A stretch of DNA of 64,000 nucleotides from Blastococcus sp. TBT05-19. Its GTDB lineage: Bacteria > Actinomycetota > Actinomycetes > Mycobacteriales > Geodermatophilaceae. This document shows, in pieces, positions 21,805 to 33,127 of the stretch. How positions within the stretch are numbered: the stretch's first letter is position 1; every line of letters starts with the position of its first letter. The translations under genes and the position numbers were made by a program. The stretch is from contig NZ_QOHI01000001.1 in the NCBI RefSeq assembly GCF_003319095.1, positions 868,001 to 932,000 on the forward strand, written 5' to 3'. The notes below the pieces were generated by a model. The model made no database searches. It was given only the letters and a program-made list of their open reading frames with translations, and was not told the DNA's origin.

Positions 21805-22021
21805 CAGCGACTCCCAGTTCTCGCTCCGCCGGGCGCTCGGTCGTGCGCTCGGCGCGGACCGGGCAATGCTTGCACACCAGCTCGCGCATGGAGTCGACGC
21901 AGTTGCCGCACGTGCGGCCGGCGCCGGTGACGCGGGCGACGTCGGCGATGCACCGGGCACCGTTGGCGATGGCCTCGAGGATGTCGCGGTCGGTCACCAC
22001 GCTGCAGTGGCACACGTACAT
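21791..22021 (-). CDS. bfd: Bacterioferritin-associated ferredoxin
   Basis: The 76 residues carry the [2Fe-2S] motif of Bfd: C4-x-C6 in MYVCHCSVV, and C38-x2-C41 in AGRTCGNCVDS. Two further Cys residues (51, 54) follow in a C-terminal extension. Bfd reduces the iron core of bacterioferritin so that stored Fe2+ is released. The gene overlaps bfr by 14 bp, which strengthens the pairing. A palindromic iron box lies about 70 bp upstream of its ATG. Confidence 0.88.
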   Translation of the reverse strand: MYVCHCSVVTDRDILEAIANGARCIADVARVTGAGRTCGNCVDSMRELVCKHCPVRAERTTERPAERELGVAGAAR

Positions 22022-22088
22022 GGAGCGGTCGCCTCACGTCCGGGGCAGGGGTCGCGCTGCTCCGGCGCGCAGGCCGGGCAACCCGCGC

Positions 22089-22107
22089 AGGTTAGCCTGG
22101 CCTAACC
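22089..22107. promoter_or_regulatory. Iron box upstream of bfd-bfr
   Basis: AGGTTAGCCTGGCCTAACC is a near-palindrome of the IdeR/DmdR type. In mycobacteria IdeR bound upstream of ferritin genes can activate storage when iron is high, and the same could apply here. It lies 68 bp upstream of the bfd start. Confidence 0.65.
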
Positions 22108-22140
22108 GGATCGCGCCAGGTGTCCTGGTCAGCGAGGTGG

Positions 22141-23208
22141 TCAGATGCCGAAGGGCTCCGTGGAGGTGGCCGGCCGGAAGGCGGAGCCGCTGACGGCGCC
22201 GACGACGCCGCCGCCGTCCCGGAGGACCTCGAGGGGCTCGACGAAGCGGCCGCTGCTGCCGTAGCGGGACCAGTAGCGCGCGGTGGCCAGGACGAAGTCG
22301 TCCTCGAGGTAGGCGCGGATCCCGGCCTGCGAGCGGAACCGGGCGAGGAGCTCGAGCTTGGTGCGGGTGAAACCGTCGATGTCCACGAAGCGCGTCGGCC
22401 GGAAGTCGATCGTGGCCGAGGGGCTCTGGAAGCAGGCGACGGTGGGCACCGACCGGGTGGCCACGCTCGCCGCCTGGTGCACGGCCCGGTGGTCCTGGTG
22501 CCGGTCGTTGGCCGAGTGCGTGTAGACGATGGTGGGGCGCACCTCGGCCACCACGCGCTCGATGATCGACATGGTCGGGTCCGCCGGGCTGATCCGGGTG
22601 TCCTCGAGGTCCTCCAGGAAGAGCCGGGCGCCGATGAGCTCGGCTGCGGCCAGCGACTCGTCCACCCGGGCGGCGGTGTCCCCGCCGCGGGCGCCGCGGG
22701 AGAGCGTGAGGATGACGACCTGGTCGCCTGCGGAGCGGTGGGCGGCCAGCGTGCCGCCGACGCCGATCTCGACGTCGTCGGGGTGCGCGCCGACGGCCAG
22801 CACCGTCTGCCGCTGCCGAGCGGCGGCACGCCTGGCCGCGGCGGTCTCCGCCTGCCGGCGGATCGTCGCGGCGAGGGTGTCCTTGGGAACCGGTTTCACG
22901 AGGAAGTCGTCGGCCTGCCGGCGCAGCGCGTCCACGGCGTAGTCGACCGACGCGTGCGCGGTCATCACCGTGACCGGCAGGTCCGGGCGGACCTGGCGCA
23001 GCCGGTCGAGGAACTCCAGCCCGGTCATGCCGGGCATCTCGATGTCGGTGATCGCGGCGTCGAACTCCACGCGGCCGATCAGGGTGAGCGCCTCGAGCGG
23101 GTCCGCGCAGGTGGTCACGGTCATGCCGCCGCGCTCGAGCACGGTGCGCACGAAGAGCGCGGTGTCGGCGTCGTCGTCGACGACGAGCACGTGCAGTGCA
23201 CCGTCCAC
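22141..23208 (-). CDS. Response-regulator receiver fused to a PIG-L (LmbE-type) deacetylase
   Basis: GTG 23208, preceded by GAGGGAG, gives 355 residues. Residues 5-120 are a receiver domain with acidic pocket Asp11-Asp13, phosphoacceptor Asp55 (AITDIEMPG) and Lys105 (FLVKPVP). A 15-residue basic linker leads into a PIG-L deacetylase with AHPDD (His142, Asp144, Asp145) and HQDHRAVH (His237, His240, His244). PIG-L enzymes are zinc-dependent N-deacetylases acting on N-acetylglucosamine conjugates, including mycothiol intermediates and antibiotics. The fusion implies phosphorylation-controlled deacetylase activity. A start at ATG 23271 is possible. The OmpR-type regulator is divergent. Confidence 0.85.
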   Translation of the reverse strand: MDGALHVLVVDDDADTALFVRTVLERGGMTVTTCADPLEALTLIGRVEFDAAITDIEMPGMTGLEFLDRLRQVRPDLPVTVMTAHASVDYAVDALRRQADDFLVKPVPKDTLAATIRRQAETAAARRAAARQRQTVLAVGAHPDDVEIGVGGTLAAHRSAGDQVVILTLSRGARGGDTAARVDESLAAAELIGARLFLEDLEDTRISPADPTMSIIERVVAEVRPTIVYTHSANDRHQDHRAVHQAASVATRSVPTVACFQSPSATIDFRPTRFVDIDGFTRTKLELLARFRSQAGIRAYLEDDFVLATARYWSRYGSSGRFVEPLEVLRDGGGVVGAVSGSAFRPATSTEPFGI

Positions 23209-23459
23209 GGTTCCGGCTCCCTCGGTCGGGTCCCCGGGTTCGGGCCGGGAGAGGACGCGGTGTCCCCGCACTCATGACGGCGGCAGCGGCTCCCGCCATG
23301 AGCCGCGCCCCCCTTTCTCACCCGTCGGGGTGGGGTGCCGGTGCCCCGGTGACCGCCAGGGGCTCAAGCAGCGCTCCTCCGGTGCCGATCACCCGGTCAG
23401 GTGACAGGAGGCCGACCGGCCGCCGCACCGGTGGCAGCCCTGCGTGAGGAGGAGACGTC

Positions 23460-24167
23460 GTGCCCGAACAGTCCGTGCTCGTGGTCGAGGACACCGAGGA
23501 GATCCGCGAACTCGTGGTGACCGTCCTCGAGCGGGCAGGCTTCGACGTGCGTGCCGTGGGCACCGGCGCCGCGGCGTTGGAGGAGGTGCGGCGGGACGCG
23601 CCGGACCTCATCGTGCTCGACCTCGGGCTCCCCGACGCCGACGGCACCGAGATCTGCCGGCAGATCCGCGCCGAGACCGCGTGCTACGTCCTGATGCTCA
23701 CCGCCCGCGCCGAGGAGGTCGACCTCCTGATAGGCCTGGCCGTGGGCGCCGACGGCTACATGGCCAAGCCGTTCTCGCCGCGCGAGCTCGCCGCCCGCGT
23801 GCAGGCGATGCTCCGGTTCCCCCGTAGCGCCGCCCCGGTCGCCTCGGCCGCGGAGGAGGTGGCGGACTCGGTCCGCCGGCTCGCCGAGCTCGAGGTGGAC
23901 GAGGACAGCCGGGAGGTCCGGGTCGACGGCGACATCGTCGACCTGACCCGCACCGAGTTCGACCTGCTGGCCGCGCTGGCCTCCCGGCCCGGCCGGGTGC
24001 TGCAGCGCGAGACGCTGCTGCGCGAGGTCTGGCAGACCGACTGGGAGGGCAACCTGCGGCTGGTGGAGGCGCACATGTCCAACCTGCGCCGCAAGCTGGT
24101 CGCGGCCGGCCTGAACTCGCCCGAGATCAAGACCGTCCGGGGAGTGGGCTACCGCCTGGTCGCCTGA
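23460..24167 (+). CDS. OmpR-family response regulator
   Basis: The 235 residues form a receiver (VLVVEDTEEIRELV, phosphoacceptor in LIVLDLGLPDADG, switch Lys in GYMAKPFSPREL). An unusually long linker (about 118-140) leads to a winged-helix DNA-binding domain (DLTRTEFDLLAALASRPGRV to EIKTVRGVGYRLVA). It starts with GTG and has GAGGAGG upstream. No kinase is adjacent. The nearest is the PAS kinase at 28413-30191, and the TasA promoters there carry direct repeats that would suit an OmpR-type protein. Confidence 0.88.
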   Translation: MPEQSVLVVEDTEEIRELVVTVLERAGFDVRAVGTGAAALEEVRRDAPDLIVLDLGLPDADGTEICRQIRAETACYVLMLTARAEEVDLLIGLAVGADGYMAKPFSPRELAARVQAMLRFPRSAAPVASAAEEVADSVRRLAELEVDEDSREVRVDGDIVDLTRTEFDLLAALASRPGRVLQRETLLREVWQTDWEGNLRLVEAHMSNLRRKLVAAGLNSPEIKTVRGVGYRLVA

Positions 24168-24200
24168 CCGCGGACCCCGTCCTCCCCGGACGGGGCCGGA

Positions 24201-24240
24201 ACGACGGAGGACCCCCGCCTCGGCGGGGGTCCTCCGTCGT
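24201..24240. terminator. Perfect bidirectional terminator hairpin
   Basis: A 19-bp perfect stem, ACGACGGAGGACCCCCGCC with its complement ending at 24240, has a very short loop. It directly abuts the stop codon of the convergent HPt-like gene. Confidence 0.75.
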
Positions 24241-24666
24241 TCAGGCGCCGGTGAGGGCGTGCAGCTCCTGGATGCGGGAGTGGGCGAGGACCCCGCGGCG
24301 GGCGTCGGCGGCGATGGCGCGGCAGACGGAGGCGACCTCGGGGTGGCCCAGCTGGCCGCTGGTGCCGGCCAGGGTGTTGGCCGCGGAGGCGACCGCGCGG
24401 GCGTCGCCGGCTCCGGTGGAGGTCTGGATGGCGGAGAGCCGCTCGGGCAGGGCGGTGCGGTAGATCTGCTGCAGGCGGTCCATGAGGTCGGCGTCGAGGT
24501 CGTCCTCGTCGTCTGCGGTGGGGGGTTCTGCCTGCGCGGTCGGCCCCGTGGTCCGGCCGCGCAGGAAGTCCAGGAGGGTGCCGGGGACGACGGCGGCGGA
24601 GAGCGGCGCGGGGCGCTCGTCGGCCGGGTCCTCGACGGTGTCGGAGGAGTGCACGAGGGTCAGCAC
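24241..24666 (-). CDS. HPt-like protein lacking the phosphorylatable histidine (copy 1)
   Basis: GTG 24666 overlaps the stop of the upstream secreted-protein gene by 7 bp and gives 141 residues. After an acidic N-terminal region, residues about 57-141 form an HPt-like helical bundle. The signature AHTLKGSSxxLG appears as AANTLAGTSGQLG, so Asn97 replaces the phospho-accepting His and Ala replaces the conserved Lys. It may therefore act as a binding decoy rather than a phosphotransfer protein. Copy 2 (26068-26493) is about 95% identical and has the same change. It is the last gene of a TasA-like cassette. Confidence 0.7.
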   Translation of the reverse strand: MLTLVHSSDTVEDPADERPAPLSAAVVPGTLLDFLRGRTTGPTAQAEPPTADDEDDLDADLMDRLQQIYRTALPERLSAIQTSTGAGDARAVASAANTLAGTSGQLGHPEVASVCRAIAADARRGVLAHSRIQELHALTGA

Positions 24667-25259
24667 GTCAGCACCCGCGTCCGCGCCGAGTCCGCCGTCC
24701 ACCGGTAGGTGGTCTGCGTCGACACGAGGAGCTTCGGCTGGTAGCCGAGGACGTCGGCGTCCTGCGTCTGGGTGACCGTCGTCGTGGCGGCGCCGGTGCT
24801 CATCACCGGGGTGATCGATCCGTCGCCGAGCTGGGCCGAGACGACGTACCCGTTGACGCCGCGCGACGTGCTGCCGGTCCAGCTCAGCGTGACGCGCAGG
24901 TCGGTGTTCTTCGTGACCGTGGTGGTCGTCGTCTCGTTCGGCCTCGGGCCGGGCTCGGTCGTCGTCGTGGTCCCCTGGACGTTGCTCGAGCTGGGGGCCG
25001 TCGTCGTCGTCGAGCTGTAGGCGGTGGTGGTCGTCGCACCGGTGCCGGGGTTCCGGTACACGGTGTGCTTGACGGTCGTCGTCGTGGTGGTGCACGAGTC
25101 GTCGAGCGTCAGCCCCGTGGGAGGCGCGACGGTGTAGGTGCTCAGGGTCGAGCTGACCGACGCCGCGTCGGAGAAGGCGGCCGACGCGGTCAGCGCGCTT
25201 CCGAGGACCACGGCGAGGGTCGTTCCGATCAGGGTCATCGTGCGCCGGATGGCGGTCAT
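24660..25259 (-). CDS. Secreted threonine-rich protein, TasA cassette copy 1
   Basis: The 199 residues begin with a signal sequence (IGTTLAVVLGSALTASAAFSD) in which a Phe follows the A-x-A, as in SipW substrates. A first strand region carries Cys, then a long Thr-rich segment (about 58-112, with TTTTT runs) and a fibronectin-III-like domain (LRVTLSWTGSTSRGVNGY to YRWTADSARTRVLTC) ending in Cys. It resembles the 162-residue protein at 26487-26975 in order, domain pattern and C-terminal LTC. It may be a fibre-associated or surface protein. Repetitive GTCGTC DNA encodes the Thr-rich part. Confidence 0.65.
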   Translation of the reverse strand: MTAIRRTMTLIGTTLAVVLGSALTASAAFSDAASVSSTLSTYTVAPPTGLTLDDSCTTTTTTVKHTVYRNPGTGATTTTAYSSTTTTAPSSSNVQGTTTTTEPGPRPNETTTTTVTKNTDLRVTLSWTGSTSRGVNGYVVSAQLGDGSITPVMSTGAATTTVTQTQDADVLGYQPKLLVSTQTTYRWTADSARTRVLTC

Positions 25260-25296
25260 GTCTTCACCTCCTCGTCTTCTGCCGTCGGACCGGGGG

Positions 25297-25899
25297 TCAG
25301 CGGGCCGAGCCGGTCTGCTGCGTGCCGGTGAAGACGAGGCTGAGCGCGGCGGACTTGCCCTGGAAGGTGTTGTCGGCGGTGGTGGGGAGGGTGACGGTGT
25401 AGGCGATGTGGTCGGTGGCGCCGGCGGTGAGGGAGGCGGCGCCGGCGAGGTTGATGGGGCTGGTGACCGGGCCGGAGCCGAAGGTCTTCTCGCCGCTGGC
25501 GCAGGTGAAGGTGTTGCCGGTCTGGGTCCAGGCGATGGCGCAGGACTTGACGGCGAGCTGCAGGCCGTTGACGGCGTCGGTGGTCAGCACGCTGGGGGCG
25601 GCGGCGGTGGCGGCGAGGGAGACGTTGCCGAGGGCGAGGTTGCCGTCGTTGACCAGGGTGATGGCCCGGGTGATGGTGTCGCCGGGGACCAGGCCCGAGA
25701 CCGCCAGGGGGAGGGTGCCCTGCGAGGTGGCGTTGATGGACAGGGTGCCGGTGTTCAGGGTGGTGTTCACCGGGGTGGTGCTGTCGGTGAAGGTTCCGAA
25801 GGTGCCCAGGCCGGCGACGGCGGCAGCGGCGCCGATGACGCCGAGGGAGCCGACGACCTTGCGGGCGGTGGTGCTGGTGGCGAGGCCGTTCTTGCTCAT
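25297..25899 (-). CDS. TasA/camelysin-family fibre protein (copy 1)
   Basis: ATG 25899, with AGGAG upstream, gives 200 residues. The signal sequence ends in GLGTFGTFTDS, the pattern cut by SipW-type peptidases. It is followed by the TasA-family segment LNTGTLSIN and then GLVPGDTITRAITLVNDGNL. TasA-type proteins assemble into extracellular amyloid-like fibres in Bacillus biofilms. A paralogue at 27649-28251 differs at only about six residues, and the 100 bp upstream is also duplicated. It is followed by the 199-residue secreted protein and an HPt-like gene. Confidence 0.78.
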   Translation of the reverse strand: MSKNGLATSTTARKVVGSLGVIGAAAAVAGLGTFGTFTDSTTPVNTTLNTGTLSINATSQGTLPLAVSGLVPGDTITRAITLVNDGNLALGNVSLAATAAAPSVLTTDAVNGLQLAVKSCAIAWTQTGNTFTCASGEKTFGSGPVTSPINLAGAASLTAGATDHIAYTVTLPTTADNTFQGKSAALSLVFTGTQQTGSAR

Positions 25900-25987
25900 G
25901 TCCGTGTCTCCTGGGTCCGTGTGGTGCCACCGGCGTTCCGGTGACACCAAGGACTCTGGAGGGCCAACCGCAGGCCACCCGCCAGCG

Positions 25988-26007
25988 ATCCGCAAGGAAT
26001 CCGCAAG
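25988..26007. promoter_or_regulatory. Tandem ATCCGCAAG repeat upstream of TasA copy 1
   Basis: Two ATCCGCAAG units are spaced 11 bp apart start to start, about 90 bp before the TasA start. The 11-bp periodicity places both on one helix face, as in OmpR-family binding sites. The same sequence is conserved upstream of TasA copy 2. Confidence 0.4.
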
Positions 26008-26067
26008 AAGACGTCGCCTTTCCCGCGGGTCTGCGGTCCCGGGGGTCCGCGTGGGTTCGCGGGTGGC

Positions 26068-26493
26068 TCAGGCGCCGATGAGGGCGTGCAGCTCCTGAAC
26101 GCGGGAGTGGGCGAGGACCCCGCGGCGGGCGTCGGCGGCGATGGCGCGGCAGACGGAGGCGACCTCGGGGTGGCCCAGCTGGCCGCTGGTCCCGGCCAGG
26201 GTGTTGGCCGCGGAGGCGACCGCGCGGGCGTCGCCGGCTCCGGTGGAGGTCTCGATGGCGGAGAGCCGCTCGGGCAGGGCGGTGCGGTACATCTGCTGCA
26301 GGCGGTCCATGAGGTCGGCGTCGAGGTCGTCCTCGTCGTCTGCGGCGGGGAGTTCTGCCTGCGCGGTCGGCCCCGTGGTCCGGCCGCGCAGGAAGTCCAG
26401 GAGGGTGCCGGGGACGACGGCGGCGGAGAGCGGCGCGGGGCGCTCGTCGGCCGGGTCCTCGACGGTGTCGGAGGAGTGCACGAGGGTCAGCAC
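26068..26493 (-). CDS. HPt-like protein lacking the phosphorylatable histidine (copy 2)
   Basis: This 141-residue protein is about 95% identical to copy 1, including the acidic N-terminal half and AANTLAGTSGQLG with Asn at the phosphorylation position. It starts at GTG 26493 and overlaps the preceding secreted-protein gene by 7 bp, exactly as in copy 1. The arrangement shows that gene order and overlap were duplicated together. It ends about 60 bp before the duplicated promoter of TasA copy 1. Confidence 0.7.
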   Translation of the reverse strand: MLTLVHSSDTVEDPADERPAPLSAAVVPGTLLDFLRGRTTGPTAQAELPAADDEDDLDADLMDRLQQMYRTALPERLSAIETSTGAGDARAVASAANTLAGTSGQLGHPEVASVCRAIAADARRGVLAHSRVQELHALIGA

Positions 26494-26975
26494 GTGAGCA
26501 CCGCCGACCGGGGGCTCTCCGTCGTCCAGCCGTAGCTGGTGAGCGTGACGATCGAGACCCGGGGCTGGTAGTTCAGGTAGGCCCGGTCGACCCGCTGGCT
26601 CATGGTCCGGGTGGCGGCGTCGGTCTCGCCCAGGCTGACCGAGGTGCCGTTGTTCAGGTGGGCCATCACGCGGTACCCGGTGACGCGGCCGGTCGCCGTG
26701 GTGGGAGTCGTGCTCGCCGACCAGGTGACGGTGGCGTCGTACCAGTAGTGCGTCTGGTAGACCGTCGTCCAGCCGTTCCAGTACGACGACGTGGTGGTTG
26801 TGCAGCGCCCCGTCGCCGAGACGGTGGCCGGGGCCGTGACGGTGATGGCGGTGACCGACGTCGGCACGGGCAGCTCGACCGTCTTGCTGAAGGTCGCCGA
26901 CGCGGAGAGCGTCGCGGCGAGGACGGTGGCGATGCCGAGGGCGAGGACCACGAGAGCGCGGCGGACGGCGATCAT
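26487..26975 (-). CDS. Secreted fibronectin-like protein, TasA cassette copy 2
   Basis: The 162 residues have a signal sequence ending SASATFSKTV, a Cys followed by TTTTSSYW, and a C-terminal fibronectin-III-like region with TGRVTGYRVMAHLNNG and a final LTC. It is a shorter, diverged version of the 199-residue protein at 24660-25259 and lacks the long Thr-rich linker. Its ATG overlaps the stop of the signal peptidase gene by four bases. Unlike the TasA and HPt copies, the two secreted proteins have diverged strongly, suggesting relaxed or diversifying selection. Confidence 0.65.
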   Translation of the reverse strand: MIAVRRALVVLALGIATVLAATLSASATFSKTVELPVPTSVTAITVTAPATVSATGRCTTTTSSYWNGWTTVYQTHYWYDATVTWSASTTPTTATGRVTGYRVMAHLNNGTSVSLGETDAATRTMSQRVDRAYLNYQPRVSIVTLTSYGWTTESPRSAVLTC

Positions 26976-27616
26976 GCCTGGTCCTCCTTCTCCGGGGCGG
27001 TGTCGTCGGTCGGGGTCGGGCGCCAGATGCTCAGGAGCACCCAGGCGGCCAGCAGCAGCGGGGCGCCGTAGAGCAGCACCTGGCTGACCACGGGCGTCCG
27101 GAGCGCCGTGACCAGGTGGCCCAGCTCGGGGACGACCGCGCGGACCTCGTAGGCGGTGTCGCCCTCGAGTCGTGCGGTCCAGGGGTCGATCGCCTCGTTG
27201 GCGTCACCCTTCGTCTGCACCAGGACGCTGCCGTCGGCAGCGTGCTCCACGGAGACGACGCGGTGGGTCACGAGGGCGCCGTCGTCGATGGGCATGTGGT
27301 ACGTGATGACCATGCCCTCGGTGACGTCCGAGACGGCGATCGGGCTGGCGACGGTGATGTCGCCCGGCTCGATCTCGGGGGCCATGCTCGCGGTCAGCAT
27401 GGTCATGGTGCGGTAGCCGAGCACGTGCGGTCCGACGGCCAGGAGAGCGAACACCAGGACGGCGACCACCATGACTCCGCGGACCAGCCACGGGGCCGTG
27501 CGGCCCATGATCTGGCGGGCCCGGTCGGCGCGGGCGCCGGCGGGAGAGCGCTCGTCCCCGGCCGGGGACAGCGCGTCGGCTGTCCCCGGGCGACGGACGG
27601 GGTGGACGGTGGTCAT
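26972..27616 (-). CDS. sipW: SipW-type signal peptidase I
   Basis: The 214 residues contain a membrane helix at about 45-65, the catalytic segment MLTASMAP with Ser77, LVTHRVV with His118 in place of the Lys of ordinary type I peptidases, and GDANEAIDPW with Asp138. A second membrane helix lies near 180-200. The Ser-His arrangement is that of the SipW/ER-type group, which in Bacillus processes TasA. It lies between the TasA copy 2 gene and its secreted partner. Only one peptidase gene serves both cassettes. Confidence 0.82.
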   Translation of the reverse strand: MTTVHPVRRPGTADALSPAGDERSPAGARADRARQIMGRTAPWLVRGVMVVAVLVFALLAVGPHVLGYRTMTMLTASMAPEIEPGDITVASPIAVSDVTEGMVITYHMPIDDGALVTHRVVSVEHAADGSVLVQTKGDANEAIDPWTARLEGDTAYEVRAVVPELGHLVTALRTPVVSQVLLYGAPLLLAAWVLLSIWRPTPTDDTAPEKEDQA

Positions 27617-27648
27617 GGCGTGGTCTCCGTTAGCTCGTCAGGCCGCGG

Positions 27649-28251
27649 TCAGCGGGCCGAGCCGGTCTGCTGCGTGCCGGTGAAGACGAGGCTGAGCGCA
27701 GCGGACTTGCCCTGGAAGGTGTTGTCGGCGGTGGTGGGGAGGGTGACCGTGTAGGCGATGTGGTCGGTGGCGCCGGCGGTGAGGGAGGCGGCGCCGGCGA
27801 GGTTGATGGGGCTGGTGACCGGGCCGGAGCCGAAGGTCTTCTCGCCGCTGGCGCAGGTGAAGGTGTTGCCGGTCTGGGTCCAGGCGACGGCGCAGGACTT
27901 GACGGCGAGCTGCAGGCCGTTGACGGCGTCGGTGGTCAGCACGCTGGGGGCGGCGGCGGTGGCGGCGAGGGAGACGTTGCCGAGGGCGAGGTTGCCGTCG
28001 TTGGTCAGGTTGATGGCCCGGGTGATGGTGTCGCCGGGGACGAGGTTCGAGACCGCCAGCGGCAGGGTGCCCTGCGAGGTGGCGTTGATGGACAGCGTGC
28101 CGGTGTTCAGGGTGGTGTTCACCGGGGAGGTGCTGTCGGTGAAGGTTCCGAAGGTGCCCAGGCCGGCGACGGCGGCGGCGGCGCCGATGACGCCGAGGGA
28201 GCCGACGACCTTGCGGGCGGTGGTGCTGGTGGCGATGCCGTTCTTGCTCAT
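27649..28251 (-). CDS. TasA/camelysin-family fibre protein (copy 2)
   Basis: This 200-residue protein is about 97% identical to copy 1; the differences I see are Leu/Ile 6, Thr/Ser, Gly/Asn, Thr/Asn, Val/Thr and Ile/Val. The signal ends GTFGTFTDS and the TasA segments LNTGTLSIN and LVPGDTITRA are intact. It heads the cassette that contains the sipW gene and lies 161 bp downstream of the histidine kinase stop. Near-identity of protein and upstream DNA indicates recent duplication or ongoing gene conversion. Confidence 0.78.
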   Translation of the reverse strand: MSKNGIATSTTARKVVGSLGVIGAAAAVAGLGTFGTFTDSTSPVNTTLNTGTLSINATSQGTLPLAVSNLVPGDTITRAINLTNDGNLALGNVSLAATAAAPSVLTTDAVNGLQLAVKSCAVAWTQTGNTFTCASGEKTFGSGPVTSPINLAGAASLTAGATDHIAYTVTLPTTADNTFQGKSAALSLVFTGTQQTGSAR

Positions 28252-28339
28252 GTCCGTGTCTCCTGGGTCCGTGTGGGGCCACCGGGTTCCCGGTGACACC
28301 AAGGACTCTGGAGGGTCAACCGCAGGCCACCCGCCAGCG

Positions 28340-28360
28340 ATCCGCAAGGAATCCGCAAGG
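28340..28360. promoter_or_regulatory. Tandem ATCCGCAAGG repeat upstream of TasA copy 2
   Basis: Two ATCCGCAAGG units 11 bp apart are followed by a weaker third (AATCGGC). The spacing and position relative to the TasA start match those upstream of copy 1. A receiver-type regulator binding both cassettes is plausible. Confidence 0.4.
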
Positions 28361-28412
28361 AATCGGCGCGGAGTGCGCAGATCGGCCGAGTCGGTCGCCC
28401 GGAGGGCCACGG

Positions 28413-30191
28413 TCAGGCCGCCGGGTCCAGGGGCAGGGTCATCGTGAAGGTCGTGCCCTGCCCCTCCACGCTGACGAGGTCCAGCGTCCCGCCGTGGGCG
28501 GTGGTGATGGCCTTCGTGATGGTCAGCCCGAGGCCGACCCCCGGCACCGCGTTGCGCCGGGCCGTGGAGGAACGGAAGAAGCGGGTGAACAGCTGCCCCT
28601 GCTCGCCGGTGGGGATGCCCATGCCCGTGTCGGCGACCGAGAGGAGTGCCACGGGGACGGCGCCGGGACGTTCGTCGGCCACGACCTCGCCGTCCGCCGT
28701 CTGCCAGGACCGCCGCAGCGAGAGCCGCACCTGGCCGTCGCGCGGGGTGAACTTGACGGCGTTCGACACCAGGTTGTCGCACGCCTGCCCGAGCCGGACG
28801 GCGTCGCCGGAGACGACCAGGCCGTCGGCCGGCACGTCCAGGACGAGGTCCACGCCGGCGGTCGCCGCGGCCACCCGGGCGGTCTCCTCGGCGGCGCGGA
28901 CCACGGCGGCGAGGTCCACGTCGGCCGGCTGCAGGGTGAAGCGGCCGCTCTCCACCTGGGCGGTGAACAGCAGGTCGCCGACCAGCCGCAGCAGCCGGTG
29001 CGCGTTGCGTTCGACCGTCGAGAGGTACCTGCGCTGGTCGTCGGTGAGCGGCTGCTCCTCGTCGTCCATGACCAGCTCGAGGTAGCCGAGGATCGAGCTC
29101 AGCGGGGTGCGCAGCTCGTGGCTGATGAGGCTCACGAACTGGTCCTTCATGCGCTCGGTCGCGCGCGTCTCGGTCATGTCGGTGCCGACGAAGTTCCAGC
29201 CGGCGTGCGCGCCGCGGTCGTCGGATCGCGGGGTGATGGCGACCGACACGGTGCGGTGGCTGCCGTCGGCGGCGACGTAGGTCCAGTCGCGCACGTCGCT
29301 GCCGTCGGTCCGGGCGGCGTGCACGAGCGCCTCCAGCGGCGACGGCGACCCGGTGCTCTCCGCCGCCGCGGCCAGCTCCTCGGGCTCGTGGAAGTCGAGG
29401 ATGGACCGCTTCCGGACGACGTCGAGCCGCGGCAACCCGAGCATCCGCTCCGCGCCCGGGTTCCAGACGCGGATGGTGCCGTCCCGGTCGGTGCCGATGA
29501 TCGACTGCTGGGTGACCGCGTCGATGACGCTGGTCATGGTCTGCGCGCGGGCGGCCAGGATGCGGGAGGCGGTGTCCAGCTCGTCGGCGCGGCTCCGCAC
29601 CTGCTCGAGGAGGACGTCCTGCTCGCGCTGCAGGCGGGCTATCAGGTGCTCCTGGGCGCGGAGGCGACGCCCGCTCTCGTTCACCGCGATGCTGCCGACG
29701 GCGACGGCGAGGGGGCCCAGCAGCAGCGCGCCGGGCAGCGGGTGCGTCGCCCCGGACGCGGTGCCCACCAGGTCCGGCACGAGCAGGACCAGCGCCGTAC
29801 CGCCGACGGCGACCGGGACGCCGGCGCGGGTCGGGTGCGAGGCGAGCAGCCACAGCGGGCCCAGGAGCAGGAGGAGCACGGTCGGCGACGCGGTGCCGGC
29901 GTGCAGCAGCGCGACGGCGAGCAGGTGCGCGACCGGGACGGCCATCGACCGGACACCGGGCCGCGAGCGGCGGGTCGCCCAGACGCCGACGGTGGCGGCG
30001 ACCGCGATCGCGAGGCCGGCTCCGGCGAGCAGCGGGTCCACCACCGGCACCCGGCCGGTTCCGAGGACGCCGGCGGTGGCGGCGAGGACGACGGTGCAGG
30101 CGAGCGCGCCGCGGACGTCGGACCACCAGGGCGCCGGGGCGGCCGGGCCGAGGGGAGCGGCTGCGGGCCGGTCCAGGACGGCGAGGGTCAT
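28413..30191 (-). CDS. PAS-domain membrane sensor histidine kinase
   Basis: ATG 30191 overlaps the stop of the upstream receiver gene (ATGA) and gives 592 residues. Five or six membrane helices occupy residues about 25-170, followed by a coiled coil, a PAS/PAC domain (VIDAVTQQSIIGTDRDGTIR to HAGWNFVGTDMTETRATE), a HisKA domain with phospho-accepting His in VSLISHELRTPLSSILGY, and a HATPase with N-box CDNLVSNAVKF and GVGLGLTITKAI. Together with the receiver protein it forms a two-component pair placed just upstream of the TasA cassettes in the same direction. Confidence 0.88.
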   Translation of the reverse strand: MTLAVLDRPAAAPLGPAAPAPWWSDVRGALACTVVLAATAGVLGTGRVPVVDPLLAGAGLAIAVAATVGVWATRRSRPGVRSMAVPVAHLLAVALLHAGTASPTVLLLLLGPLWLLASHPTRAGVPVAVGGTALVLLVPDLVGTASGATHPLPGALLLGPLAVAVGSIAVNESGRRLRAQEHLIARLQREQDVLLEQVRSRADELDTASRILAARAQTMTSVIDAVTQQSIIGTDRDGTIRVWNPGAERMLGLPRLDVVRKRSILDFHEPEELAAAAESTGSPSPLEALVHAARTDGSDVRDWTYVAADGSHRTVSVAITPRSDDRGAHAGWNFVGTDMTETRATERMKDQFVSLISHELRTPLSSILGYLELVMDDEEQPLTDDQRRYLSTVERNAHRLLRLVGDLLFTAQVESGRFTLQPADVDLAAVVRAAEETARVAAATAGVDLVLDVPADGLVVSGDAVRLGQACDNLVSNAVKFTPRDGQVRLSLRRSWQTADGEVVADERPGAVPVALLSVADTGMGIPTGEQGQLFTRFFRSSTARRNAVPGVGLGLTITKAITTAHGGTLDLVSVEGQGTTFTMTLPLDPAA

Positions 30192-30604
30192 GCCGGCACC
30201 CCGGCGGTCAGCGACCGCACCTGGTGCACGAGGCCGGCGATGGTGAAGGGCTTGGCGAGGTAGGCGTCGGCACCGGCCGAGAGACCGCGGGCGACCTCGT
30301 CGGGCCAGGCGCCGGCGGAGAGCAGCAGGATGCGGATGCCGGCGGTGGCCGGGTCCTCCCGCAGGGCGGTGCAGACCTCCAGGCCGGTGGCCCCCGGCAT
30401 GGACACGTCGAGGACGGCGAGGTCGGGGAGGTCGGTGGCCGCGGCGACGAGCGCCTGCGAGCCGTCGGCGACCGACCGGACCACGTCGCAGCCGGCCTTG
30501 CGCACGGCCAGGCACACGAGGTCGCGGATGTCGTCCTCGTCGTCGGCCACCAGCACCCGGAACCGGCCGGGCGAGGTGTCGGTGGCGGGCAGGGCCGAGT
30601 CCAC
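30188..30604 (-). CDS. Single-domain response regulator
   Basis: GTG 30604, preceded by GGGAG, gives 138 residues. A 17-residue leader precedes a receiver with Asp-Asp pair in VLVADDEDDIRDL, phosphoacceptor in LAVLDVSMPGATG, and Lys in AYLAKPFTIAGL. There is no output domain, so it is a CheY-like or phosphorelay intermediate. It is coupled to the kinase gene downstream. HPt-like proteins encoded in the nearby cassettes could be binding partners. That is inference. Confidence 0.82.
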   Translation of the reverse strand: MDSALPATDTSPGRFRVLVADDEDDIRDLVCLAVRKAGCDVVRSVADGSQALVAAATDLPDLAVLDVSMPGATGLEVCTALREDPATAGIRILLLSAGAWPDEVARGLSAGADAYLAKPFTIAGLVHQVRSLTAGVPA

Positions 30605-30749
30605 GAGGGGCTCCCGTCGGTCGTGACCGGCGACCGCGGGGGCGGGCGCCGCCGTTGGCGTCGTCCTGGGGAGGAACGGCGGCCCGGGAGGTGCCCTGCA
30701 GCGGGGTCCGGGGGGTCTCACCCGTCGGGGGGAGGGCCCCCGGACAGCA

Positions 30750-30782
30750 CTGCGCCCCGCCGGGAGATCCCGGCGGGGCGCA
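30750..30782. terminator. Bidirectional terminator hairpin
   Basis: CTGCGCCCCGCCGGG pairs with CCCGGCGGGGCGCAG around a short AGAT loop. It lies just after the end of the DUF3618 gene (stop at 30813 on the minus strand). Confidence 0.65.
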
Positions 30783-30812
30783 GGCGTACGACGCGGGTCA
30801 GCGACCCGCGGA

Positions 30813-31478
30813 TCAGCTGGAGGCCTGGCTCTGCACGGTCTCCTTGGACTGCTGGGCCTGGCCCTGCACGTCCTGGGCCGCCGACTGGCCCTCCTGCTTG
30901 ACGGTCTCGGCCGCACCCTGAGCGGTGGACTTGACCTCCTCCACCGCCTGCTGCGCGGCGGGCTTCAGCTGGTCGCCGATCTCCTGCGCGGCCTGCTTGG
31001 CCGGCTGGAGGAGGGCGTCCTTGTTCTCGCGGAGCGCGGACTCGGCCTGCTGGGCCAGCTCCTGCTCCTTCTGCGAGGCGGGCAGCAGGCTGGAGACCAG
31101 CCAGCCCACACCGAAGGCGATCAGACCCGCGGCGAGGGGGTTGCCCTGCGCCTGCCGGGTGATCGTCTCCGGAGCCTGCTGGACGGCGCCCATCGCGGAC
31201 TGGGCGGCGTGCTGCACGCTGTCCGCCGCGTTGGAGGCCGTGCCCTGCACCGAGCCGGCCGCGTTGGAGGCCGTCCCGTGCATCGAGGACTTCGTGTCGT
31301 GGGCAGTGCCCATGACCTTGTCCTTGAGGTTGCTCACGCGGCCCTTGGCCGCGGTCACCCGACGGTCCATGACGCGGGACGGGTTGACCTTCTCGTTGAG
31401 GGCGTCGACGTCGTAGCTGAGCTCGCGCCGGGTGTCCTCGATCTGGCGCCGGATGACATCCGGGTCACTGCTGGTCAT
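30813..31478 (-). CDS. DUF3618 family protein
   Basis: The 221 residues start with the DUF3618 signature DVIRRQIEDTRRELSYDVDAL. A helical region with repeated GTASNAAGSVQ units follows, then one membrane helix (about 112-132, LAAGLIAFGVGWLVSSLLP) and a long Gln/Ala/Glu/Lys-rich amphipathic helical tail. AGGAG precedes ATG. Proteins of this family occur in actinobacteria with holin-like and LEA-like neighbours, as here, and are probably membrane-associated structural or stress proteins. No biochemical role is known to me. Confidence 0.75.
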   Translation of the reverse strand: MTSSDPDVIRRQIEDTRRELSYDVDALNEKVNPSRVMDRRVTAAKGRVSNLKDKVMGTAHDTKSSMHGTASNAAGSVQGTASNAADSVQHAAQSAMGAVQQAPETITRQAQGNPLAAGLIAFGVGWLVSSLLPASQKEQELAQQAESALRENKDALLQPAKQAAQEIGDQLKPAAQQAVEEVKSTAQGAAETVKQEGQSAAQDVQGQAQQSKETVQSQASS

Positions 31479-31519
31479 GTTCGGCTCCTGCCGTTCAAGA
31501 GACCTCAGCGGTCTGCTGG

Positions 31520-32038
31520 TCAGTTGGGCTTCAGGGCGCCGGGAACCTGCTGGAGGGTCTCGACGGTGCGCTCGGGCTTCGGGTTCACCTGCTGGAACTT
31601 CTTCTTGCCCATGAGGCCGGTCACCGCGGCGACGACGCCCCAGAGGATGGCGACGATGAGCGCGGCCAGGCCGGCGTCCATGACGTTCTCCAGCGCCCAC
31701 CACAGGGCGAAGGACAGGAACATCAGGACCATGTAGCCGGCGAACGCTGCCGCACCGAACATCCCGGCGCCGGTACCGGCCTTCTTGGCCTCGGCCTTCA
31801 GCTCGACCTTGGCGAGCTCGAGCTCCTGCCGCATGAGGGTCGACATGTCCTTGGCGACCTCACCGATCAGGGCACCGACGGAGACGCCTTCGACGTCCGG
31901 GTGTCCCGAGTCGGTCATGGGGGTCCCCATGGCGCCGCTGTGGGACCCCTGGGAGTAGTCGGCCGCGTAGTTCTGCGTCGGCTCGGCGTATGCCTGCGGC
32001 GTTCCCGCCGGTGAGGCCCCGGAGTAGGGGGAGCTCAT
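31520..32038 (-). CDS. Phage-holin-superfamily (Holin-X type) membrane protein
   Basis: The 172 residues have a Ser/Tyr/Gly-rich disordered N-terminus (about 1-48). An amphipathic helix (VGALIGEVAKDMSTLMRQELELAK), two membrane helices (about 85-110 and 118-140) and a basic C-terminus follow. This matches the actinobacterial holin-X family, which is chromosomal and not tied to prophages. It is the middle gene of a three-gene unit with DUF3618 and a related helical protein. Confidence 0.72.
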   Translation of the reverse strand: MSSPYSGASPAGTPQAYAEPTQNYAADYSQGSHSGAMGTPMTDSGHPDVEGVSVGALIGEVAKDMSTLMRQELELAKVELKAEAKKAGTGAGMFGAAAFAGYMVLMFLSFALWWALENVMDAGLAALIVAILWGVVAAVTGLMGKKKFQQVNPKPERTVETLQQVPGALKPN

Positions 32039-32039
32039 G

Positions 32040-32831
32040 TCAGCCCACCTCACCCGGGCGACGTGCCGGGTCGTCCCAGCCCGCGGGCGTGGTCGGCGGG
32101 ACCATGCTGCCGGCCGGCGGCGTGGTGCCGTACGGCGGCGGGGGGAGCGGAGCGCCGGTGCCCGTGCCGACCCCGGTGCCGGTGGTGGCGCTGGAGTAGT
32201 CGGAGTACGTCGGCGCCGGGTCCACGTAGTTGGTCGGCGTGCTCCGGTAGGAGGTACCGCCACCGGTGGTGCCGGAGTCGCTGTGCGCGGCCTTGACGCC
32301 GCTGGTCAGCCGGCCGGCGAGCACGCCCGCGGCGGCCGCACCCAGCAGGAACAGGCCGGGCTTGCGACGGGCGAAGGCGCGGACCTCGTCGAGCAGTTCG
32401 GCCGGCTCGCGGTTCTGCAGCTTGTCGGCGAAGCCCTCGACGATGCCGGAGGCCTGGTGCAGCAGGTCGCGCGCGGGGCCGGGGGCCCCCTCGCTGGAGC
32501 CGTCGGCGAGGCCGCGGAGCTCCTGGGCGAGCGACGTCAGGCCGGAAGCGGCCTTCTGCTGCTGGCCGATGGTCTGCTCCTTGAGCTGGGACCGGCCCTG
32601 GTCGAGCAGGTCCTTGGCCTGGCGCTGGGTCTCGTCGACCACCGTCTTGGCCTGGTCGGCGGCGGTCGAGGCGACCTGGCTGCCGGCCTGGGCGGCGGTG
32701 TCCTTCACGTTCTGGGCCTCGCTCTTGGCGACGTCGGCCTTCGACGTGCCGGAGCCCGTCGTGCCGGCGGTCGTGGCGCCCGTATCGACGGGGGCCGGGG
32801 GCGGGAACGGGGTGTCGATGGAGTGAGTCAT
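32040..32831 (-). CDS. LEA-like helical membrane-associated protein
   Basis: The 263 residues start at ATG 32831 with GAGGAGG upstream. A helical region (about 30-150) has repeated Ala/Gln/Lys/Asp segments such as DAAQAGSQVAS and DLLDQGRSQLKEQ, resembling apolipoprotein- or LEA-type amphipathic helices. One hydrophobic helix follows (about 165-182, PGLFLLGAAAAGVLAGRL), then a Gly/Thr/Pro-rich disordered tail. It is the first gene of the three-gene unit and stops one base before the holin-type gene. Probably an envelope stress protein; no function can be stated. The 32832-33127 gap shows no gene. Confidence 0.65.
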   Translation of the reverse strand: MTHSIDTPFPPPAPVDTGATTAGTTGSGTSKADVAKSEAQNVKDTAAQAGSQVASTAADQAKTVVDETQRQAKDLLDQGRSQLKEQTIGQQQKAASGLTSLAQELRGLADGSSEGAPGPARDLLHQASGIVEGFADKLQNREPAELLDEVRAFARRKPGLFLLGAAAAGVLAGRLTSGVKAAHSDSGTTGGGTSYRSTPTNYVDPAPTYSDYSSATTGTGVGTGTGAPLPPPPYGTTPPAGSMVPPTTPAGWDDPARRPGEVG

Positions 32832-33127
32832 CGGTCCTCCTCGGCAATCTTCGTGGTCGGTGGAGGCGCTACCCCCGTGCCGTTGCGGCACACATCCGGC
32901 CGGTCGATCACCGGCCCGGACGGCCGCAGCGGCGACGGGATCAGCGCTGGGGGTCGCGCGGGGAAACTGGGTCGTCCACCCGGCGCATCCGTGCATCCCG
33001 GGGCGGGATCGGTGTCGCATGAGAAGGGCAGAGACGCGCGCTGCGCCGTCCTCCCGCCGCTCCGCAGAGCACCGTTCCTCGCGGAGGGGCGGATACCCGG
33101 GTCAGGGGGCGGACGAAACCGGGAAGA

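Follow-up and report, generated by a model that had tools for sequence, protein, structure and literature searches.

A TasA/SipW-type operon of Geodermatophilaceae with a candidate regulator-binding box and an HPt-like protein that often lacks its histidine

Most work on TasA fibres has been done in Bacillus and related bacteria. The stretch of DNA analysed here (64,000 nucleotides of Blastococcus sp. TBT05-19, contig NZ_QOHI01000001.1, positions 868,001 to 932,000; hereafter the window) carries at 24241-30604 of its minus strand a locus in which genes for TasA, a SipW-type signal peptidase and FN3 proteins are accompanied by two-component genes and by two copies of a protein resembling a histidine phosphotransfer (HPt) domain. 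A first-pass annotation had inferred phosphorelay control of fibre assembly; through the HPt, such control is contradicted in this genome, and the route is rejected, since both copies have asparagine at the phospho-histidine site. The reading preferred here, to which we give about an even chance, is that a two-component system controls the surface-fibre operon and that the histidine-less HPt (pseudo-HPt) encoded within it acts as a receiver-docking feedback brake. The transcription order is receiver, PAS kinase, TasA, SipW, FN3 protein and HPt, followed by TasA, FN3 protein and HPt:

30188..30604, minus strand: single-domain receiver (REC), GTG start (PF00072, E 5e-23)
28413..30191, minus strand: membrane sensor histidine kinase (HK) with about five hydrophobic segments, PAS, HisKA and HATPase_c (Pfam, hydropathy)
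28320..28359, minus strand: promoter box 2, four 7-bp repeats with an 11-bp period, then CAGAGT (exact genome match, C7:896320-896359)
27649..28251, minus strand: TasA copy 2 (PF12389, 53.9 bits against a cut-off of 22.5; structures 8aur, 5of1)
26972..27616, minus strand: SipW-type signal peptidase (TIGR02228, 62.7 bits against a cut-off of 51.85)
26487..26975, minus strand: FN3 protein A, predicted to be secreted, with signal helix, extended stretch and complete FN3 sandwich
26068..26493, minus strand: pseudo-HPt copy 1, without receiver, Asn replacing His (PF01627, E 2.5e-8; model and fold match)
25968..26007, minus strand: promoter box 1, architecture as in box 2 (exact genome match, C7:893968-894007)
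25297..25899, minus strand: TasA copy 1 (PF12389, 49.3 bits against the same cut-off; 97% identical to copy 2)
24660..25259, minus strand: FN3 protein B, predicted to be secreted, with a Thr-rich insert (same family as FN3 protein A by alignment)
24241..24666, minus strand: pseudo-HPt copy 2 (PF01627, 32.7 bits against a cut-off of 24.6; 96% identical to copy 1)
24191..24250, no strand: inverted repeat of 29 nt with a 2-nt loop, 93% complementary, between convergent genes
23460..24167, plus strand: OmpR/PhoB-family response regulator, convergent with the operon, beyond the inverted repeat (PF00072 and PF00486)

An HPt protein without its histidine

Both window HPts retain the PF01627 profile match and the four-helix bundle fold; at H+3 they have alanine, and the fused receiver has been lost. 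To judge from its sequence, the window HPt cannot relay phosphate in the usual way, because asparagine stands where the phospho-histidine should. A query with the HPt found matches in 77 of 112 family genomes (E 1e-3), a few of them via unrelated HPts, and 78 regions were fetched (a weak match in G101 was left unfetched), from which 74 loci were kept, the window's locus included; those left out were L104 and L112 (other HPts), L105 (a contig end, 27 residues) and L106 (which has no HPt of this family). When named genomes were scanned with the HPt alignment, 54 loci were obtained, nearly all labelled Blastococcus, Geodermatophilus, Modestobacter or Trujillonella.

Histidine stands at the phospho-site in 27 of the 74 loci and is absent from the other 47, and this site is the most variable of the 62 HPt columns examined. 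The glycine at H+4 is present in 74/74, and excerpts from PMC6341664 give a small residue there as a rule for HPts. A receiver is fused to the HPt in approximately 61 loci (four rows corrected by eye); nine loci were called receiver-less by script, L063, L097, L098 and L100 were added by eye, and L094 proved to be a frame break instead. A second, diverged REC-HPt paralog, without the histidine at the site, lies in tandem in nine loci of group g2 (L045, L046, L047, L050, L057, L060, L062, L065 and L067).

Promoter box and conservation of the operon

Boxes in the PhoB/OmpR families are direct 7-bp repeats with an 11-bp period. The window box is alike in repeat length and period and different in sequence, and is a predicted PhoB/OmpR-type operator. 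By eye, tandem CTTGCGG-like 7-mers with an 11-bp period were found in all of 66 TasA upstream regions (degraded in two, L052 and L102), most of which also have a CAGAGT-like hexamer after the repeats, and the mean self-match of these regions peaked at lag 11 (0.374; 0.268-0.35 at the remaining lags between 3 and 33). With up to three mismatches, the four-repeat pattern has exactly three matches in its own genome, all of them perfect and one before each TasA gene, whilst the reversed pattern has none there. The third TasA is diverged (41%) and lies about 700 kb away at C7:194997-195587 (L106:10995-11651, minus strand).

Across the family, the pattern (up to two mismatches) occurs in 76/112 genomes, against two matches altogether for the reversed control (G057, G092), and an ortholog of the OmpR-type regulator occurs in 84/112 (E 1e-75). 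Both are present in 74 genomes, the box alone in 2, the regulator alone in 10 and neither in 26 (Fisher p 4e-15, uncorrected for common ancestry). Two-component control of the TasA operon is plausible because of the box and the OmpR-type regulator, and not because of the HPt. In nine g3 loci that have no TasA (L091-L093, L096-L100, L103) the box, with 0 to 3 mismatches, stands directly before the HPt gene; the HPt therefore persists more constantly in the box operon than TasA does. Twenty further box sites were fetched (two at contig ends), several of them upstream of proteins that are secreted or are short membrane proteins. At L215, L218 and L224 the box stands before mutually similar secreted proteins rich in Ala, Pro and Val, each approximately 210 residues long. 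At L209 a box with two mismatches precedes a protein of 97 residues in which the stretch DDLHDADLD is HPt-linker-like, and the region seems also to encode a protein which we take to be PilZ-like.

The full arrangement, in which HK, TasA, SipW, FN3 and HPt genes share one strand and a convergent OmpR-type regulator lies beyond the HPt, was found in 50/74 loci; four more have the complete set except for a detected FN3 gene, and ten have HK, HPt and OmpR-type regulator without TasA and SipW, the tenth (L107) being a metagenome contig of group g2 which also has the box. The HPt gene is preceded by a 7-nt overlap in 49/74, and the tree was built from the 66 loci in which both HK and OmpR were found. 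The single-copy operon is thus conserved in Geodermatophilaceae, bearing out the first-pass annotation in that the TasA/SipW locus comes with two-component genes of its own. Its further description of duplicated TasA-secreted-HPt cassettes, with near-identical TasA and HPt copies and with sipW in one cassette, also holds: the TasA copies share 194/200 residues (15/603 nt differ) and the HPt copies 135/141 (8/426 nt differ). As a general form the repeated cassette did not stand; the gene set recurs in single copy, no second tandem TasA-FN3-HPt cassette was seen among the genes listed in the relatives' locus maps, and the tandem was seen in the window alone. Other family genomes have tandem TasA genes or the second, diverged REC-HPt.

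In contrast to their flanking genes, the FN3 genes A and B are identical at just 271 of 486 aligned nt. FN3 protein A is nearest to L038 (74%) and L039 (60%), and protein B to other loci (L054, L067, L059 and L040; 51-63%); the window TasA copies, and likewise the HPt copies, are closer to one another than to any relative compared, and A-type and B-type FN3 genes adjoin each other in three relatives (L045-L047). These three observations point to a probable origin of the tandem from two FN3 lineages, with recent duplication or homogenisation of TasA and HPt. Seven of the eight nucleotide differences between the HPt copies fall in residue-changing codons, a number too small to judge selection.

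Both TasA copies pass the curated PF12389 cut-off. The peptidase reading invited by the Pfam name ('Peptidase_M73') was set aside, as the structure matches (8aur and 5of1, E 0.003) are to TasA-type fibre proteins. The TasA genes are encoded with SipW, whose gene adjoins TasA copy 2; with 63.4 bits against the Bacillus SipW model NF046067 (cut-off 190), the window peptidase is predicted to be SipW-like and not the Bacillus SipW equivalog. Secretion of the TasA-like proteins, which the first-pass annotation took as decisive together with conservation in relatives, is predicted by hydrophobic N-termini in TasA and both FN3 proteins, each followed by an F-containing start resembling that of TasA. 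Over 63 TasA segments the mature start reads F (100%), T or S (100%), D (97%), and over 55 FN3-protein segments F stands at 100% and D at 49%. With this TasA-like mature N-terminus and a complete Ig-like domain after it, the FN3 protein is TapA-like in architecture. Weak Pfam matches of FN3 protein A (to Lir1) and of SipW (to PycTM) are regarded as chance.

The inverted repeat at 24191..24250 is possibly a two-way terminator. Adjoining the OmpR-type regulator is a gene for a fusion of a receiver with a GlcNAc deacetylase of PIG-L type (22141-23271, minus strand), which several relatives have at the corresponding position. An Rfam scan of 22000-33000 returned no families.

A proposed brake on the signal, and its alternatives

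On the preferred reading, the adjoining OmpR-type regulator (23460-24167) most likely receives its phosphate from the membrane kinase (28413-30191); the regulator would bind the four CTTGCGG-like repeats upstream of each TasA gene and switch on TasA, SipW, FN3 protein and HPt jointly. SipW would process TasA and the FN3 protein, TasA would polymerise into a fibre by donor-strand exchange, and the FN3 protein would probably start, cap or decorate it as TapA does, because it combines an extended TasA-like N-terminus with a complete Ig-like fold. The lost histidine suggests an HPt acting as decoy or brake; it would dock on receivers, whether that of the OmpR-type regulator or the separate REC, and so damp the signal. 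In relatives which have the receiver and not the histidine, the signal perhaps enters at the receiver and leaves through the HPt.

A second actinobacterial family (f29, conceivably Cellulomonadaceae) suggests where such a brake may sit. TasA is found in 7/149 of its genomes, and in six loci from five genomes the HPt is encoded within the TasA/SipW operon or has tandem TasA genes on either side, together with a convergent OmpR-type regulator; leucine occupies the histidine site in 6/6. In two of these genomes SipW and HPt form one open frame: L268:9148-10125 (TIGR02228, 66.4 bits; PF01627, 27.9 bits) and L270:8759-10450 (TIGR02228, 71.1 bits). By eye, the HPt follows the second hydrophobic stretch in these frames and would hence be cytoplasmic. 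Because of them, braking at the membrane is suggested, with the pseudo-HPt probably near SipW, where it could report export load. A related promoter arrangement ending in CAGAGT precedes 11/12 of the f29 TasA genes; the pattern was composed after these promoters had been viewed, so that its count describes and does not test. In 153,508 bp it has 12 matches, 11 of them before TasA; the other precedes a gene whose match to the FN3 profile is weak (17 bits).

A profile of the f29 HPts matches in 31 of 396 genomes of the phylum, one of which, G113, was looked at. This genome, from another family, encodes four small stand-alone HPt-like proteins without the histidine (L293-L296; by eye the site is L, V, L, I); two adjoin OmpR-type regulators and none lies with TasA in the 13.5 kb examined. 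A wider proposal is offered tentatively, as one we would not yet favour: that Actinobacteria have a class of histidine-less HPts which serve as receiver-docking regulators, of which the TasA/SipW pseudo-HPt, at the peptidase or in some species part of it, would report fibre-export load to the OmpR-type regulator, with secretion feeding back on transcription.

Several observations weigh against the braked operon. The association of box and regulator is uncorrected for phylogeny, ten genomes have the regulator without the box (at two mismatches) and two the reverse, and a number of boxes stand before genes that are not TasA. Matches to helical-bundle folds come with a high background. Coupled loss of the receiver aspartate and the HPt histidine was looked for and was not clear, because the aspartate is retained in 27 of the 47 rows without histidine. 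The L270 frame scores 24.0 bits for PF01627, 0.6 bit under the cut-off, and no HPt was detected at the TasA loci L250 and L271 (f29) or L272 (G514). In a 394-genome sample of the class, PF12389 matches in 17 genomes, 15 of them outside the family, and 15 of the 16 extra-family TasA loci have no HPt-profile match within approximately 3 kb, the remaining one being in G491. The HPt profile itself matched in three genomes of this sample: that of the window, another from the same genus, and G219 (L170), which was rejected as a relative because its HPt is an ordinary histidine-bearing one. Lastly, 27 HPts keep their histidine, 16 of them together with the receiver aspartate and lysine, so that a true relay may operate in these relatives, above all in group g2 (histidine in 15 of 16).

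Of the alternatives, one holds that the HPt-like protein has departed from two-component signalling and is a partner of SipW or Sec, as a stabiliser, recruiter or export checkpoint. The single SipW-HPt frames, with their presumed cytoplasmic HPt, favour it, as does the position of the HPt gene within the SipW operon in most loci. However, the nine g3 loci without TasA and SipW keep the HPt beside kinase and OmpR-type regulator, under the box, and in most loci the HPt is fused to a receiver; we consider this alternative unlikely. A second sees the HPt as a decaying remnant, drifting without function after loss of the relay, in keeping with an active site free to vary and a window lineage that has lost the fused receiver. 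This is improbable, as 24 of 88 HPt alignment columns are invariant across 24 diverse rows, the gene persists under the box where TasA is absent, both window copies are open, and f29 keeps a fixed leucine.

A working phosphorelay, from kinase through REC and HPt to the OmpR-type regulator, would make use of all four module types, which are present in the locus, and the 16 loci with histidine, aspartate and lysine, like the 15/16 loci of g2 that keep the histidine, speak for it; but the window HPts, with Asn at the site, Ala at H+3 and no fused receiver, and the loss of histidine from the majority of family loci make it highly improbable. That the site residue is still used chemically, through phosphorylation of Tyr, Thr, Ser or Asp or through mimicry, is scarcely credible: Y, T, D and S do occur among the replacements, but so do A, G, F, Q, N and L, and no common chemistry fits them.

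Relation to known systems

In the open-licence PMC literature, no paper was found on SipW together with HPt; TasA with Geodermatophil matched solely a soybean endosphere metagenome paper, TasA with histidine phosphotransfer gave plant papers by title among the matches listed, and TasA with SipW and Actinobacteria gave no title with an actinobacterial fibre locus. A word search did not find TasA in the main text of a Geodermatophilaceae comparison (PMC9686282). Among the matches listed, the literature on degenerate or pseudo-HPts is mostly on plants, with few bacterial or archaeal papers (e.g., PMC3842833, in excerpt).

In Geodermatophilaceae, whose members live in soil and on stone, the TasA fibres seem to be connected with a two-component system by a directly readable promoter box, and the fibre genes seem to share one signal-controlled switch. 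The same operon also appears tied to an HPt which has repeatedly lost its active residue and kept the rest of its surface. Pseudo-HPts are known in plants, and the HPts of this family would provide a natural bacterial series, all within one gene, that leads from relay to decoy.

The tapA-sipW-tasA operon of Bacillus subtilis and the sipW/TasA/CapP/CalY region of B. cereus (PMC9674648, PMC10151520, PMC13082335) resemble the window, as far as the excerpted parts of these papers go, in having a TasA subunit, a dedicated SipW and an accessory protein (in Bacillus TapA) whose N-terminus resembles that of TasA; the accessory protein is of FN3 type in the window and has a V-set Ig fold in TapA. Unlike the window, the Bacillus operon as described in the same parts is under SinR control and has neither two-component genes nor an HPt. 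Excerpts also report that B. subtilis SipW affects matrix gene expression (PMC13082335) and serves solid-surface biofilms without its peptidase activity (PMC5817204); the SipW-HPt frames would offer a concrete route for such a regulatory role.

For the HPt itself, the nearest analogy is Arabidopsis AHP6, described in excerpts of PMC6518804 as an HPt with Asn for His and a negative regulator of its phosphorelay. The HPt fold and the asparagine are shared, whereas AHP6 belongs to the plant cytokinin pathway, and inhibition by the bacterial protein would follow by analogy. HptB of Pseudomonas aeruginosa (PDB 7c1i), in contrast, has the histidine which the window protein is without. In Clostridium perfringens, a TasA-like subunit and SipW are likewise encoded with a two-component system (sipW-bsaABCRSD), in which, according to the parts of PMC7395162 available, expression depends on BsaRS, the sipW promoter is a binding site of BsaR and no HPt is mentioned; the window differs in its convergent DNA-binding regulator and in the pseudo-HPt of its output operon. 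Two-component control of a sipW/TasA-like operon is thus already known, and what is new here is the pseudo-HPt component.

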